NCBI RefSeq assembly: GCF_030845995.1
Contig: NZ_CP132719.1
Coordinates: 682,001-746,000 of the forward strand
DNA length: 64,000 nt
Direction: 5' to 3'
Source: Geothrix sp. 21YS21S-4
GTDB lineage: Bacteria > Acidobacteriota > Holophagae > Holophagales > Holophagaceae
Under the pieces are notes generated by a model. The model was given only the letters and a program-made list of their open reading frames with translations. It was not told where the DNA came from and did not search any database. The translations under genes and the position numbers were made by a program. The first letter of the stretch is position 1; the number at the start of each line of letters is the position of its first letter. Below are positions 2,549 through 42,020 of the stretch, in pieces.

Positions 2549-2587
2549 CAGCTTTCCCAGATTGTTTCGCGTCCTGCGGAGCTGGGC

Positions 2588-3436
2588 TCAGTCTCGCGTC
2601 AGGGCCATCAGGTCTTCGCTGACCTGCTTCAGGTCCAGCACCATCCCCGCGATGGCGCGGGTGGTCTCGGTCTGCTCGTGGGTCTGGGTCGTCAGGTCCT
2701 TGGAGAAATCCACCACCCGGCCCATGGATTCGTTCAGGTGGGACTGGGCCACCTTGATGTGCTCCGCCGACTGGTTGGACTGGTCCGACAGCTTGCGGAC
2801 GGCCTCCGCCACGATGGCGAAGCCGCGCCCGTGGTGCTTGGCGTGGGCCGCCTCGATGGCCGCGTTCAGGCCGAGCATCTGGGTGTTGCTGGCGATGGAC
2901 TGGATGGTCTCCACCACTTCGCCCGTCGTCTTGATGTCCTCGAAGGAGGCGTTCACCAGCCGCTCCACCTCTTCGACCATGCCCGACACCCGGGCCTGGG
3001 AGGCGTTCACCTGCTCCGCGGTGGACACGATGGTGCTGATGGCGGTGTCCATCTGCGCCGCGTGGCCCACCAGGCGTTCGAGCAGCTCCCGCTCCCGCAG
3101 TTCCTTGGAGAACAGGCCGGAGGCCATGCGGGTCACCAGCAGCGTCTTCTCGGGATCGCCCGGGATCCCGATGGATCCGATCAGCTCGCCGTTGTGGCGG
3201 ATGGGCAGGTTGATGCCCGCCCGGACCGTTCCGCCGGACGCTTCCTCTTCTTCCGCGGTGACGATCAGGAAGGGGAGGTCCTCCTGGAGCATCTTGCGGG
3301 TGCCGGCGTGGAAGGTGCCGATCCGCGAGGTGACGTGGGCAGCCACGATCGTCCCGTCGAGGTCGCAGACGATCGGATTCATCTCCGTCGCGGTGTGGAT
3401 GAACTCCACGATCTTTTGGGCGATTTCACGGTCCAT
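2588..3436 (-). CDS. Soluble chemoreceptor with sugar-diacid-recognition-like sensor domain
   Basis: The protein has 282 residues and no membrane segment. Residues about 1-115 (MDREIAQKIVEF..., GTIVAAHVTSRIGTFH, LPIRHNGELIGSIGIPGDP) resemble the diacid-recognition domain of CdaR-type regulators (Diacid_rec). A methyl-accepting signalling domain follows, with the conserved hairpin tip [20 protein letters not shown] at 189-208. The signalling domain is short. The likely job is to pass a cytoplasmic metabolite or redox signal to CheA/CheW. The ligand is unknown and cannot be read from the sequence. It is followed on the same strand by no close partner, and the methyltransferase lies 45 bases upstream. 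Confidence 0.85.
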   Translation of the reverse strand: MDREIAQKIVEFIHTATEMNPIVCDLDGTIVAAHVTSRIGTFHAGTRKMLQEDLPFLIVTAEEEEASGGTVRAGINLPIRHNGELIGSIGIPGDPEKTLLVTRMASGLFSKELRERELLERLVGHAAQMDTAISTIVSTAEQVNASQARVSGMVEEVERLVNASFEDIKTTGEVVETIQSIASNTQMLGLNAAIEAAHAKHHGRGFAIVAEAVRKLSDQSNQSAEHIKVAQSHLNESMGRVVDFSKDLTTQTHEQTETTRAIAGMVLDLKQVSEDLMALTRD

Positions 3437-36000: not shown

Positions 36001-36408
36001 ATGACCCAGGACCGGCGACAGTACCGACGAATCCCCATGGAAGCGGCCCTGAGCTTCCAGGAGCTCAGTTTCCACAAGGGAGAAGCCCCTGCGACCAGCA
36101 GCTACCGGGACGTGTCCATCGGGGGCCTGCTGGTGGATTCCCCCCGGGCCTACCCCCTGGGGACCCTCCTGAAGCTGGAGATCCGGGTCCCGGGCTGGGG
36201 CCGGTTCCAGAACCACTTCGGGCCCGCCCAGGAAGCCGACGTCCGCCCGCTGGTCGCCCTCGGGACCGTCGTCCGGGTGGAACAGTTGGACGAAGGGGGA
36301 TACGAATTGGGCGTGAAGTTCCAGAATGTATATCCGGACGACCTCGAAGCTCTGATGAAATTCGTGGAGGCCGCCGCGCCCTCGTCCGTCCCCCCGTCCA
36401 CTCTCTGA
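36001..36408 (+). CDS. PilZ-domain protein
   Basis: The 135-residue protein begins TQDRRQYRRIPMEAALSF, containing the RxxxR c-di-GMP-binding motif, and SYRDVSIGGLLVDSP supplies the D/NxSxxG motif. Together these are the two signature elements of a PilZ c-di-GMP receptor. It stands 28 bases before cheY and is the likely first gene of the chemotaxis operon, suggesting c-di-GMP input to motility. Confidence 0.9.
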   Translation: MTQDRRQYRRIPMEAALSFQELSFHKGEAPATSSYRDVSIGGLLVDSPRAYPLGTLLKLEIRVPGWGRFQNHFGPAQEADVRPLVALGTVVRVEQLDEGGYELGVKFQNVYPDDLEALMKFVEAAAPSSVPPSTL

Positions 36409-36436: not shown

Positions 36437-36793
36437 GTGAAGATCCTCATCGTGGACGATTCCTCGACGATGCGGCGCATCATCATCAACACCCTCTCCC
36501 GCATCGGTTACACCGACGTGGTCGAGGGCGAGAACGGCAAGTCCGGGCTCGAGAAGCTCGGTCAGGGCGGCGTGGAGATGATCATCACCGACTGGAACAT
36601 GCCCGAGATGGACGGCCTGGAGTTCGTGAAGACCGTGCGCGGCCAGAACCCCTCGATCCCCATCCTGATGGTGACTACCAACGCCGCCAAGGAGGACATC
36701 GTGGAAGCCCTCCAGGCGGGCGTGAACAACTACGTGGTGAAGCCGTTCACCCCGGAGACCCTCAAGGAAAAGATCGAATCCCTCCTCGGGTAG
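36437..36793 (+). CDS. cheY: Chemotaxis response regulator CheY
   Basis: The 118-residue single receiver domain has the acidic pair DD at 7-8, phospho-acceptor D52 in TDWNMPEMDG (the DW pair typical of CheY), VTTNA containing the conserved Thr, and the switch Lys in VVKPFTP. Phospho-CheY binds FliM to change flagellar rotation. The GTG start has AGGAGG 7 bases upstream. It is followed after 12 bases by cheZ. Confidence 0.95.
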   Translation: MKILIVDDSSTMRRIIINTLSRIGYTDVVEGENGKSGLEKLGQGGVEMIITDWNMPEMDGLEFVKTVRGQNPSIPILMVTTNAAKEDIVEALQAGVNNYVVKPFTPETLKEKIESLLG

Positions 36794-36805: not shown

Positions 36806-37429
36806 ATGGATCAGTCCGAGATCGACGCCCTCCTCGCCGGAGGCGGCAAGTCACCCAAGAAGCCGAAGGCGACGGCGGCGCCCGCTGCCGCGGCGGCTCC
36901 GGCCCCCGCGCCTCCAGCTCCTGCGCCCGCACCGGCCTCCGCGCCCGCCCACGAGGAGCCCCACAAGGACGGCAGCGGCCACGTCATCTCCGAGCTGGAC
37001 ACCGTCACCGCGGTGACCGAGCGCGAGTCCAACAAGGTGATGGACCAGCTGGACCAGATCAGCCGCCTGGTCTCCCGCCAGCAGCAGCTGATCACGGACA
37101 TGATGCGCCACGAGGGGGCCCAGACCCCGGGCGTCCAGAAGGCCATCCACGAGGTGATGAGCGCGGGCAAGGAGATCCAGGACAAGGTCTTCGAGGCCAT
37201 GGACCTGATGCAGTTCCAGGACATCACGCGCCAGAAGCTGGAGCGGATCGTCCACCACCTCCGCCAGATCCACGACTACATCGTCGACCTGCTGGGCACG
37301 GGCCTGAAGAGCGACACCGAGCGTCCCTCCATCAGCCACACCATCGCCCAGACCGGCACCACCCCGGACGAGAACAAGGCCCACGCGGATTCCGTCATCG
37401 AGGCCTTCCGGCAGCAGAAGAAGGGGTAG
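36806..37429 (+). CDS. cheZ: CheZ-family CheY-P phosphatase with FliM-like N-terminal peptide
   Basis: The protein has 207 residues. The first ten residues (MDQSEIDALL) match the CheY-P-binding peptide of FliM. A Lys/Ala/Pro-rich linker (15-52) follows, then a helical domain. Residues 136-148 contain QFQDITRQKLERI, which has the Asp-x-Thr-x-Gln arrangement (D139, Q143) of the catalytic helix of E. coli CheZ (FQDLTGQ). The family role is to dephosphorylate CheY-P. The gene is tightly packed between cheY and the triple-CheW gene (3 bases). Confidence 0.85.
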   Translation: MDQSEIDALLAGGGKSPKKPKATAAPAAAAAPAPAPPAPAPAPASAPAHEEPHKDGSGHVISELDTVTAVTERESNKVMDQLDQISRLVSRQQQLITDMMRHEGAQTPGVQKAIHEVMSAGKEIQDKVFEAMDLMQFQDITRQKLERIVHHLRQIHDYIVDLLGTGLKSDTERPSISHTIAQTGTTPDENKAHADSVIEAFRQQKKG

Positions 37430-37432
37430 CAC

Positions 37433-38959
37433 ATGGCGGACACCACCCAGGCCCTTCTCGCCGGCGAACTGGTCCCGTCGGGCCAGCTGGTGACCTTCAC
37501 CCTGGACGGGGTGGAGTTCGGCCTGGACATCGACCGCGTCCAGGAGATCACCCACCGCTCCGACGTGACGCCCGTTCCCGGCAGCCCCAGCTTCATCCTG
37601 GGCGTGATCAACCTCCGCGGGCTGATCATCCCCGTGATCGACAGCCGCGTCCGCTTCCACCTGGCGCCCCAGGAGCCCACCTCCAAGACCCGGATCATCG
37701 TCCTGCGCCTGGCCAGCGGGCCCACCGGCCTCCAGGTGGATTCCGTGGCCGAAGTGGTGCGCCTGGAGGACCACGCCCTCCGCGAGACCCCGCCGCTCGT
37801 CGCCGGCATCCGCGCCGAGTACCTGGCCGGCATGGTCACGGTAGGGAATCGGCTGATCACCCTGATCCATCTCGAGAAGCTGCTGGACAGCAGCGAGCTG
37901 AGCCGCCGCGCCGAGCTGGAGGAGCTCAGCATGGAGGGCTCCTTCGGCGGGAACGAGGGCACCGAGGAGGAAATCGAGGCCGACGGGCGGCCCTTCGTCA
38001 CCTTCCGGCTGGGGACCGAATCCTTCGGGATCGCCCTCCAGCAGGTGGAAGAGATCGTCGAACTGCCCACCGTGACCAAGGTCCCCGACGCTCCGGACTA
38101 CGTTCTGGGGGTGATCTGCCTGCGGGACCAGGTCATGCCGCTCATCGACCTGTCCGAGATCCTGTCCATCGAGCAGGGCGAAGGCGGGCGCCGCCGCGAC
38201 ATGGTGGTGCTGCTGTCCTTCGGCTCCGCCCGGATCGGCGTGGTGGTGGACGAGATCCAGGAGATCCTGCGCGTGCAGGACGACCAGATGCTGCCGCCGC
38301 CCCAGACCCTGTCCGAGGCCGAGCGCGAGCACCTGGAGGGCATCCTCCTGCTTCCCGGCCGGATGGTGAGCCTGATCAACGTCCTCAAGATCATCACCGG
38401 CGACGACCAGGAGAAGATCGCCGCCATGGGCCAGGGCCTGGGGTTGGGCGACGCCCGCACCCAGGAGACGCACCCCAGCCTCGAACTGGTGGCCTTCCGG
38501 CTCGGCCCCGAGAGCTACGGCCTGCGCCTGCACGAGGTCCGCGAGATCATCATGGTGGGCCAGATCACGCCCGTTCCCCGCGCCCCGCACTTCGTGGACG
38601 GCGTCCTGAACCTCCGCGGCGAGGTCATGCCGGTGGTGGATCTCCGCACCCGGTTCGGGCTGGAGCGCGTCGAGGCCACGTCCATCTCCCGGATCCTGAT
38701 CACCAGCATCGGCGGCGTGTTCACCGGCCTGGTGGTGGACGCGGTGGATGAGGTCCGTCCCGTCGAACTCCACCGCTTCGGGCCTCCCCCCTCGGTCACC
38801 GCCGTGGGCGCCAACCGCTATATCGAGAAGGTGGCGCGGCTGGACAACGGAATGATCTTCCTGCTGGAGCTGCAGCAGCTCCTGACGGACGCCGAGACCG
38901 AACAGCTCCAGGGCCTCCAGGGGCGCCGGACCACGGCCAACAGGACGGGTGAGCCATGA
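37433..38959 (+). CDS. Triple CheW-domain coupling protein
   Basis: The 508-residue protein consists of three consecutive CheW domains: about 17-155 (VTFTLDGVEFGLDIDRVQEI, GVINLRGLIIPVIDSR), about 187-335 (FVTFRLGTESFGIALQQVEE, GVICLRDQVMPLIDL) and about 350-490 (VAFRLGPESYGLRLHEVREI, GVLNLRGEVMPVVDLRTRFG). There is no receiver domain, so it is not CheV. A triple CheW could bridge several CheA or receptor units in one array. It overlaps cheA by ATGA. Confidence 0.92.
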   Translation: MADTTQALLAGELVPSGQLVTFTLDGVEFGLDIDRVQEITHRSDVTPVPGSPSFILGVINLRGLIIPVIDSRVRFHLAPQEPTSKTRIIVLRLASGPTGLQVDSVAEVVRLEDHALRETPPLVAGIRAEYLAGMVTVGNRLITLIHLEKLLDSSELSRRAELEELSMEGSFGGNEGTEEEIEADGRPFVTFRLGTESFGIALQQVEEIVELPTVTKVPDAPDYVLGVICLRDQVMPLIDLSEILSIEQGEGGRRRDMVVLLSFGSARIGVVVDEIQEILRVQDDQMLPPPQTLSEAEREHLEGILLLPGRMVSLINVLKIITGDDQEKIAAMGQGLGLGDARTQETHPSLELVAFRLGPESYGLRLHEVREIIMVGQITPVPRAPHFVDGVLNLRGEVMPVVDLRTRFGLERVEATSISRILITSIGGVFTGLVVDAVDEVRPVELHRFGPPPSVTAVGANRYIEKVARLDNGMIFLLELQQLLTDAETEQLQGLQGRRTTANRTGEP

Positions 38960-41079
38960 GCGACTTCGCCCTCGACGATCCCAGCTTCTACGAGGATTTC
39001 CTCATCGAGGCGCAGGAGCACTTCGAGCAGATCGAGACCAACTTCCTGGCGCTGGAGGAATCCCCCGGCGACCTGGACCTGCTGAACGCCATCTTCCGCA
39101 GCATCCATACCATCAAGGGCGCCGCCGGGTTCCTGGGCCTCCAGAAGGTCCAGGCCCTCGCCCACGTCGGCGAGAGCGTGCTGGACGACCTCCGCAAGGC
39201 CCGGATGGAGCTCAACGAGCGGGTGATGGAGCTGCTGTTCGAGACCGTGGACATGCTCAAGGTCCTGGTGGACGACGTCCGCGTCCAGGTCCGGAAGCAG
39301 GGCGAGCCCGAGGATCCCGATCCCAGCGAGCTGATCCGCAGCCTGGAGGCGCTCCGCAAGGGCGGCGCCCAGGCCACGGAGGCCGCGCGCGCCGCGGCGC
39401 CCAAGGGCGAGCTACACCTCCCCTCCGCCCTCGACGGCCTCGACCCCGCGGGGAAGAAAGCCGCGGAGGCAGCGCTGGCCGAGCACAAGTCCGTCGTGGG
39501 CATCCGCGCCGAACTGGACGGCGCCATCTTCGGGACCGCCTTCAATCCCTTCTCCCTGTTCCAGATGGTGGAGCTGGTGGGACGGCTGCTCTACCGCCAA
39601 ATGGTTCCCCGCCAGCCGCTGGTGGACCTGGACACCTTCGAACCCCGGAGCTTCCATCTGGACCTGGTGCTGGTCATCGAAGCCGCCGAGCCCATCGAGG
39701 AGGTCCGCCGGATCTTCGGCGCGGTGACGAACGCCACCATCGGCCTGTTCCCCCTGGGCCTCGCCGAAGCCGAAGCGCCCGCCGAGGCGGAGGCCGCGGC
39801 CGGTTCTGACGGCGCGGCCGCCCCGGAGGACCGCCGGAAGACGGGCCGTCGGGCCGCCGACGACAAGAGCGGCGCGGACACCATCCGCGTCAGCCAGGCC
39901 AAGCTCGAGCAGTTCATGAACATCGTGGCGGAGCTGATCATCAGCAAGACCATGATCAGCCACCTGGTGGAGCGCCTGACCCCCCTGGTGAACGGCCATC
40001 CAGCCGCCGGCGTGGCCAAGGAACTGGCCCACGCCTCCGTCTACCTGGACCACGTCAGCAAGGAGATCCAGGCTTCCGTCCTGGGCATCCGCATGGTGCC
40101 GGTGAAGACCGTGTTCTCGAAGTTCCCGCGGATGCTGCGCGACCTCGCCAAGGCCAGCGGGAAGAAGATCGACCTCCAGATGATCGGGGAGGACACCGAG
40201 ATCGACAAGAGCATCATCGAGGAGCTGGGCGACCCGATGATCCACCTCATCCGCAACAGCGCGGACCACGGGATCGAGATGCCCGAGGTGCGCGTGAAGT
40301 CGGGCAAGCCCGAGGTGGGCACCGTCGTCCTGCGCGCCCGCCACGAGGGCGACAGCGTGATCGTGGAGATCGAGGACGACGGCAAGGGCATCGATCCCGC
40401 CGTCATCCGCGCCAAGGCCGTCGAAAAGGGGCTGATGTCCCCCGAGCGGGCCGACGCCATGGCCGACGAGGAGGTGATCGAGCTGATCTTCGCGCCGGGC
40501 TTCAGCACCGCCGCCAAGGTCACGGACATCTCCGGCCGCGGCGTGGGCATGGACGTGGTCCGCTCCAACGTGCGCAAGCTGAACGGTCGCGTGGGCGTGC
40601 GCTCCACCGTGGGCAAGGGCTCGATCTTCACCATCAAGCTGCCCCTCACCCTGGCGATCATCGACGCCCTGCTGGTGAAGAGCGGCGGCCAGGTCTTCGC
40701 CATCCCGGGCACGGCGGTGGAAGAGACCCTGATCGTCCCGCAGGAGACCGTGTCCCACCTCACCCGGCGCCAGGCCATCAACCTGCGCGGCGAAGTCCTG
40801 GGCGTCTCGCGCCTGCGCCACCTGCTGCGCTCCGCCACCGCGCCCGAGGGCGCCGAGGAAGACGGCCTGTCCGTGGTGGTGATCGCCTCCGGCGGACGCC
40901 GGATGGGGATCATCGTGGACAGCTTCGTCCGCCGGCAGGAAGTGGTCATCAAGCCCCTGGCGCCCTACCTGGCGAGCCTGCCCGGGATCAGCGGCGCCTC
41001 CATCATGGGCGACGGCGGCGTGGTGCTGATCCTCGATCCCGCCGAACTCCTGCAGCTCGCCGTCCAGGAGGCCGTGTGA
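38956..41079 (+). CDS. cheA: Chemotaxis histidine kinase CheA
   Basis: The protein has 707 residues. The P1 HPt domain has phospho-acceptor H51 in SIHTIKGAAGF. An unusual P2-region domain (about 145-265, VVGIRAELDGAIFGTAF...) replaces a standard CheY-binding P2. The P3 dimerisation helix (VSQAKLEQFMNIVAELI), P4 ATPase (LIRNSADHGIEMPEVR, DDGKGIDP, GRGVGMDVVRSNV) and P5 CheW-like domain are present. It overlaps the genes on both sides by 4 bases, so stoichiometry with the two CheW-type proteins is translationally linked. The P2 replacement resembles segments predicted to interact with response regulators, but I cannot name it. Confidence 0.95.
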   Translation: MSDFALDDPSFYEDFLIEAQEHFEQIETNFLALEESPGDLDLLNAIFRSIHTIKGAAGFLGLQKVQALAHVGESVLDDLRKARMELNERVMELLFETVDMLKVLVDDVRVQVRKQGEPEDPDPSELIRSLEALRKGGAQATEAARAAAPKGELHLPSALDGLDPAGKKAAEAALAEHKSVVGIRAELDGAIFGTAFNPFSLFQMVELVGRLLYRQMVPRQPLVDLDTFEPRSFHLDLVLVIEAAEPIEEVRRIFGAVTNATIGLFPLGLAEAEAPAEAEAAAGSDGAAAPEDRRKTGRRAADDKSGADTIRVSQAKLEQFMNIVAELIISKTMISHLVERLTPLVNGHPAAGVAKELAHASVYLDHVSKEIQASVLGIRMVPVKTVFSKFPRMLRDLAKASGKKIDLQMIGEDTEIDKSIIEELGDPMIHLIRNSADHGIEMPEVRVKSGKPEVGTVVLRARHEGDSVIVEIEDDGKGIDPAVIRAKAVEKGLMSPERADAMADEEVIELIFAPGFSTAAKVTDISGRGVGMDVVRSNVRKLNGRVGVRSTVGKGSIFTIKLPLTLAIIDALLVKSGGQVFAIPGTAVEETLIVPQETVSHLTRRQAINLRGEVLGVSRLRHLLRSATAPEGAEEDGLSVVVIASGGRRMGIIVDSFVRRQEVVIKPLAPYLASLPGISGASIMGDGGVVLILDPAELLQLAVQEAV

Positions 41080-42020
41080 CCCTGGGCGGTTCTCCGGCGC
41101 CCGTGGGGGCGTCCCGGGCTGAGGGCCGGGCGGATGCTCGGGAGGCGGCGCAGCAGCGCTTCCTGACCTTCCACCTGGACGGGCGGACCTACGGCCTGCC
41201 CCTGAATCGCGTGGCCGAGATCAGCCCCTTCCGCGAGCTGAACAAGCTGCCCCACATGCCCAAGTCCGTGGAGGGGATCCTGGATCTGCGGGGGCGCGTG
41301 ATCCCCGTGGTCAACCTGCGCATTCGCATGTCCCTTCCGCCCCTGGACGCTTCCAAGGTCGGGACGATCCTCGTCCTGGACCTGGAGGGCCAGCCCACGG
41401 GCCTGCTGGTGGATGGCGTGGAAGGCGTCCTCAGCGTGGGTGAAGGGGAGCTGGTTCCCGCCAGCCCGCTGCTGGCCGGCCTCGACGGCGCCTGGGCGGA
41501 GGGCTTCATCGTCCAGGGCGAGCGGGTGGTCACCCTCCTCGACGCCCTGCTGATCACCGCCCAGGGAGCGGGCCGGGCCCACACGCGCCACGCCGTGGCG
41601 GAGCGGGGGCTGGAGGAGCGCCTGGACGAGGGCCTCCGGCGGCTCATCGCCATGGCTCCCACCAAGGAGCAGGGGGGGCAGCGGGTCATGCCCCAGATCG
41701 AATCCTCCATCTCCTACACCGAGCAGGAAATGGCGAAGGTCCTCGACCGCGTGGAGGCCATGCTGGGCGGCGCCGATCGCACCTTCCGCGGCCTGGCCTA
41801 CCTCAAGCAGGAGGCCGGCCTGGGCAAACTGAAGGGCCACGAGCGCAGCATCGCCGAGCTGGAGCGCACCAACCAGGAACTCCAGGACACCGTCTTCGCG
41901 CTGATCCAGCAGGTCCAGTACCAGGACATCGCCCGCCAGAAGCTGGAGCGCGTCATGGCGCACCTCAAGGGCATGCAGGTGGCGATCTCGGGCAAGTTCA
42001 GGGCCACGAAGGCGGAATAG
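41076..42020 (+). CDS. CheW domain fused to a CheZ-like helical tail
   Basis: The 314-residue protein starts at a GTG overlapping the cheA stop. Residues about 27-165 form a CheW domain ([35 protein letters not shown]). After a linker, residues about 210-310 are helical, and 280-292 read [13 protein letters not shown]. This nearly repeats the catalytic helix of the CheZ encoded at 36806-37429 (QFQDITRQKLER), keeping the Asp and Gln (D284, Q288) but with Ala for Thr. I infer a CheW carrying its own CheY-P phosphatase-like helix. Activity is not proven. Confidence 0.85.

Follow-up and report, generated by a model that had tools for sequence, protein, structure and literature searches.

CheV, a CheW adaptor with a receiver domain, is a known case of a second signalling domain carried by CheW. 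In Leptospirae, fusions of CheA to CheC/CheX have been described (PMC10782961), and in E. coli, CheA-short binds CheZ non-covalently via the hairpin tip, F97/W98 (PMC7750401). Here we describe CheWZ, a protein of Geothrix sp. 21YS21S-4 encoded within a window of 64,000 nucleotides (the whole stretch of DNA that was analysed), in which a CheW domain is followed by a CheZ-homologous helical hairpin. CheW is the adaptor from which the chemotaxis sensor array is built, and CheZ turns the swimming signal off; the fusion, found in a single order of Acidobacteriota, would bring the enzymes for signal-on and signal-off together in one array. Its nearest precedent is the Leptospirae fusion, where a CheY-P phosphatase domain likewise lies within a core array protein (PMC10782961), although the phosphatase fold is a different one (CheC/CheX) and is attached to the kinase instead of the adaptor. 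Like recruitment by CheA-short, CheWZ is predicted to bring CheZ-type activity to the receptor array, but that recruitment is non-covalent, whereas here the hairpin is covalently fused to CheW. CheV likewise carries a second domain on CheW, in its case a receiver in place of a phosphatase. Full-text literature searches, with most subscription journals and domain-architecture databases outside their scope, turned up no report of a CheW-CheZ fusion, in agreement with an earlier note on this DNA, which knew of none. Judged from its sequence, CheWZ is a real, conserved fusion of two known parts, apparently undescribed, whose function we infer below.

A CheW protein with a C-terminal extension in the cheA operon

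The open reading frame at 41076-42020 (+ strand) had been correctly delimited in the earlier note as that of a CheW protein: it encodes 314 residues and matches Pfam CheW. Its start is a GTG at 41076, 4 nt downstream of an AGGAGG Shine-Dalgarno sequence (41066-41071), and its first 4 bp (GTGA) are shared with the end of cheA. The operon has the order pilZ-cheY-cheZ-cheW3-cheA-cheWZ, which places cheZ three genes upstream of cheWZ and not four, as previously counted. This order and the cheA overlap are kept in 20 fetched same-genus loci; two were cut by contig ends. An origin of CheWZ by misassembly or frameshift was rejected because orthologs of the same length occur in many independent assemblies.

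The PilZ-domain protein (36001-36408, +; Pfam) holds a conserved position at the head of the gene block and is followed by CheY (36437-36793, +; Pfam Response_reg and alignment to E. coli CheY), which is strongly E. coli-like, with TDWNMP around the phospho-acceptor, of which DWNMP is kept. The stand-alone CheZ (36806-37429, +; 207 aa) was identified by Pfam CheZ (E 5.6e-4), NCBIfam Phos_CheZ (E 2.7e-13) and conservation; it contains the motif QFQDITRQKLERI, with D139/Q143, and a conserved C-terminal tail, ADSVIEAF. Its N-terminus (window 36806-36844, +) reads MDQSEIDALLAGG, hardly varies among 20 orthologs and is similar to the beginning of the genome's own FliM, MAKILSQEEVDALLKSH; a CheZ from Desulfurellales (L174) echoes it with MSQNEIDDLIAEF. 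The N-terminal peptide of FliM is the docking peptide for CheY-P, and CheZ may, judging from this likeness, compete with the motor through the motor's own peptide.

Downstream lie CheW3, with three CheW domains (37433-38959, +; three Pfam stretches), and CheA, with Hpt, dimerisation, ATPase and CheW domains (38956-41079, +; Pfam). Triple CheW proteins have been called a signature of the F9 class (PMC9321776); the one found here sits in a cheA-containing, flagella-associated operon. No ordinary single CheW is encoded in the operon, its adaptors being CheW3 and CheWZ, and the only other strong stand-alone CheW of the genome belongs to another che cluster. The genome encodes FliM and about 20 receptor domains above cut-off. 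At 2552-3022 (-) of the window, a receptor signalling domain is interrupted by an in-frame TGA, possibly a broken receptor gene.

Further CheZ-type and switch proteins were found elsewhere in the genome. A second fusion, conserved across the family, joins a HAMP domain to CheZ (L001:7776-8702, -; genome 1387775-1388701); it scores 35.4 bits with Pfam CheZ, above the cut-off, and ends in an E. coli CheZ-like tail, DDIIAQF. A fourth, divergent CheZ-like protein (L177:7431-8117, -) contains QYQDVVRQKLERV and the C-terminal tail ADSVVAEF, with no Pfam match. Four CheZ-type proteins in one genome look unusual. Beside FliM, a gene at L178:8893-9816 (+) encodes a FliN-type C-terminus preceded by a weak CheX-like match (E 0.004), possibly a FliY-like switch protein.

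The CheW domain of CheWZ covers residues 29-160 (41160-41555, +), as delimited by Pfam, structure match and alignment to E. coli CheW. It scores 102.5 bits (E 1.8e-29) against a curated cut-off of 23.5, and E48 and R72, invariant in the family alignment, align with E38/R62 of E. coli CheW, a salt-bridge pair needed for correct alignment of the receptor and kinase sites (PMC3828127). The AlphaFold2 model, built with a 33-row diverse alignment, consists of a CheW barrel, a connecting helix and a hairpin and has a pLDDT of 82; with 12 close relatives the value was 54, and the more diverse alignment raised it to 82. In the CheW part, pLDDT is mostly >90 and Z is about 18-20 against solved CheW over ~140 residues. 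In domain score, fold and salt-bridge pair alike, CheWZ carries a true CheW domain. It thus resembles CheW in its full domain and fold, in the E38/R62 equivalents and in sharing an operon with cheA, but is longer at the C-terminus by about 150 residues, which include the CheZ hairpin. The connecting helix (residues 164-193; 41565-41654, +) contains a conserved 13-residue segment and is weakly modelled, with a local pLDDT of about 55-69.

Homology of the CheWZ tail to CheZ

A 13-residue, catalytic-type segment of CheWZ had been reported as nearly repeating the CheZ motif, with an Asp and a Gln four residues apart in both proteins. We located the segment at residues 281-293 and the two residues at D284/Q288, matching D139/Q143 of CheZ, and found the resemblance to be larger, at 110 aligned residues. 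Of the proposed CheZ-like phosphatase helix, the homology to CheZ held, but the restriction to a single helix did not, since the whole hairpin is homologous. BLASTP, hhalign, NCBIfam Phos_CheZ and the model place this hairpin at residues 204-313 (41685-42014, +), with AlphaFold2 helices at 204-248 and 256-313; the DxxxQ motif, D284-I-A-R-Q288 (41925-41939, +), lies in the second of these helices, is invariant and shares its register with D143/Q147 of E. coli CheZ.

BLASTP aligned residues 195-304 of CheWZ to the operon CheZ with 30% identity (E 4e-13). A profile of 22 diverse fusion tails matched the local CheZ family across 110 columns with E 1.2e-17 (hhalign) and, in a separate comparison, the HAMP-CheZ family with E 1.6e-11. 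A HAMP-CheZ from another member of the Acidobacteriota (L165) in turn matched Pfam CheZ over positions 3-200 of 203 (E 4.8e-13). All 22 fusion hairpins matched NCBIfam Phos_CheZ, the best with E 2.5e-6, though all scored below its strict cut-off. CheWZ scores below the curated CheZ cut-offs of both Pfam PF04344 and NCBIfam NF041271; since the neighbouring stand-alone CheZ does so too, these models cover this branch poorly. E. coli CheZ aligned to the local CheZ profile with D143/Q147 in register, and the link of the fusion hairpin to E. coli CheZ runs via the Holophagaceae CheZ and HAMP-CheZ families, direct hhalign comparison of the fusion hairpin with the single E. coli sequence having given no significance.

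Long helices yield many weak matches, and the Pfam matches of the tail alone are mostly to scattered coiled-coil families, as would be expected if an unrelated helical tail merely resembled CheZ by chance or by its coiled-coil character. This explanation is highly improbable. The CheWZ-CheZ score lies 17 SD above the mean of shuffles (n=2,000) that preserve heptad phase and with it any coiled-coil periodicity, and still 11 SD above once the motif region (23 residues) is masked, a score that 0/2,000 shuffles reach; remote fusions gave a similar result. These shuffles rule out coiled-coil similarity, and the profile E of 1e-17 and the in-register DxxxQ of the local CheZ family and E. coli CheZ also speak against chance. 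The structure search recognised CheW alone, the hairpin matching generic coiled hairpins and helical pairs; no CheZ, including 1KMI, was among the matches listed by Foldseek and VIA-align, an absence that carries no weight, since hairpins match anything. When the PDB was searched by sequence, the fusion hairpins found mostly coiled coils and no CheZ, and the CheZ family found 1KMI at E 0.43. Because of the profile matches, the HAMP-CheZ bridge to Pfam CheZ, the Phos_CheZ matches and the in-register D143/Q147, we conclude from these sequence comparisons that the CheWZ tail is a CheZ hairpin by descent, with homology that spans both helices and extends beyond the motif.

CheWZ thus shares with E. 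coli-type CheZ (PF04344, NF041271) the hairpin, the DxxxQ pair, its [FY]QD context, a similar first-helix pattern and a close CheY alongside. It differs in being attached to a CheW domain, in its sub-cut-off scores and in lacking the linker and C-terminal CheY-docking helix: every family member ends soon after the hairpin.

Conservation and distribution of the fusion

Neither D284 nor Q288 varies in any of 21 same-genus sequences or of the 22 diverse fusion tails. A scan of genome contigs from 84,980 species returned 41 loci with all or part of the fusion; 39 are complete fusions, and all of these keep DxxxQ. The flanks, QDI-RQKLE, are invariant or nearly so, and mean conservation equals that of the CheW domain (0.855 for the tail, 0.851 for CheW). 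The tip of the hairpin and its first helix likewise show strong conservation. A helical-wheel estimate of D/Q exposure gave 85 and 125 degrees for CheWZ, where the moment was weak, and 179 and 141 for E. coli CheZ.

The earlier note had proposed searching the Acidobacteriota for CheW with the C-terminal motif. Among 60 relatives, the fusion was found in 24 same-genus genomes besides that of the window (68-78% identity), and among 396 genomes of the phylum solely in Holophagaceae. Cultured Geothrix such as G. rubra and G. limicola are among its carriers. Every fusion in the 84,980-species scan, which used the single peptide pattern Q[FY]QDI[AT]RQ and would miss fusions with an E. coli-type CheZ (QDLTGQ), belongs to Holophagaceae/Holophagales or falls inside their clade; a plasmid search gave no match. 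Two bins with Holophagaceae-type CheWZ/CheZ, one labelled Deltaproteobacteria (L127, inside the Holophagales clade) and one Bacillota (L168), are probably mislabelled. An apparent CheA-CheW-CheZ triple fusion in L130 (1072-aa ORF) was discarded: read directly, its upstream part does not resemble CheA and seems to be the cheA region in a different frame.

In the tree, the fusion hairpins group in a single clade (97/98), which makes a single fusion event likely. The clade includes the fourth CheZ-like protein, whose placement beside one fusion was disregarded given its very long branch. CheZ and CheWZ co-occur across genomes, and the presence of CheWZ is tied to the flagellar switch: CheWZ was found in 24/28 species with a FliM/N switch domain and in 0/8 without (p 1.6e-5), the four FliM/N species that lack it being represented by incomplete assemblies (77-87%).

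Predicted role of CheWZ in the receptor array

These observations are best accommodated if CheWZ serves as an adaptor of the array and carries, in its hairpin, a CheY-P phosphatase of the CheZ type, a reading to which we assign a probability of about 0.62. The CheW part would bind CheA P5 and receptors and so place the hairpin at the array. One hairpin is predicted per chain in the AlphaFold2 monomer, and the CheZ four-helix bundle needs two; the hairpin would pair with a second one, supplied by a further CheWZ or by the stand-alone CheZ, and D284 and Q288 would then have the role towards CheY-P that D143/Q147 have in E. coli CheZ. Because CheWZ has no docking tail of its own, it probably depends either on high local CheY-P near CheA or on a partnering CheZ that contributes its tail and FliM-like peptide. 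The outcome would be a hard-wired counterpart of CheZ recruitment via CheA-short in E. coli.

The missing docking helix and the separate, full CheZ of the operon make it conceivable that CheWZ is only weakly active as a phosphatase, contributes one half to a mixed dimer with CheZ or mainly anchors CheZ. In the last case, the hairpin would chiefly form dimers with the stand-alone CheZ and thereby bring this protein to the array, with catalysis by the CheZ subunit. This arrangement would suit the co-operonic, co-occurring genes, the homologous hairpins, the contrast between a tail-less CheWZ and a CheZ with a conserved tail and FliM-like N-terminus, and the precedent of E. coli, where an array protein recruits CheZ as a hairpin dimer (PMC7750401). 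A hairpin that did nothing but anchor would, however, tolerate changes at D284 and Q288, which are invariant, and we consider this arrangement unlikely, if worth keeping in mind. Less probable still is a hairpin that has lost phosphatase function and now links or spaces array units; the absent docking tail would fit, and the conserved tip and first helix would suit a structural surface, but conservation peaks in the catalytic stretch, where D, Q and their neighbours are the same as in CheZ. Since the D284/Q288 pair and its flanks are invariant or nearly so, which an anchor alone would not need, predicted catalysis by the CheWZ hairpin is favoured. Most likely, CheWZ brings CheZ-type activity into the receptor array, where the earlier note had also suggested that dephosphorylation would be placed.

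More speculatively, CheWZ could be the main adaptor of the flagellar CheA, so that each core unit would hold kinase and phosphatase in a fixed ratio and the receptor state might gate both. We regard this extension as doubtful; if true, the array would both write and erase CheY-P. In E. coli, modelling indicates that both the gain of the chemotaxis signal and its spatial uniformity depend on where the CheY-P phosphatase is located, and the response becomes sharper with colocalisation (PMC2673030). A lineage with a phosphatase domain covalently built into the array adaptor would be a natural test of this idea of phosphatase location, and CheWZ may offer a way to put a phosphatase at the array of laboratory strains with no need for CheA-short.
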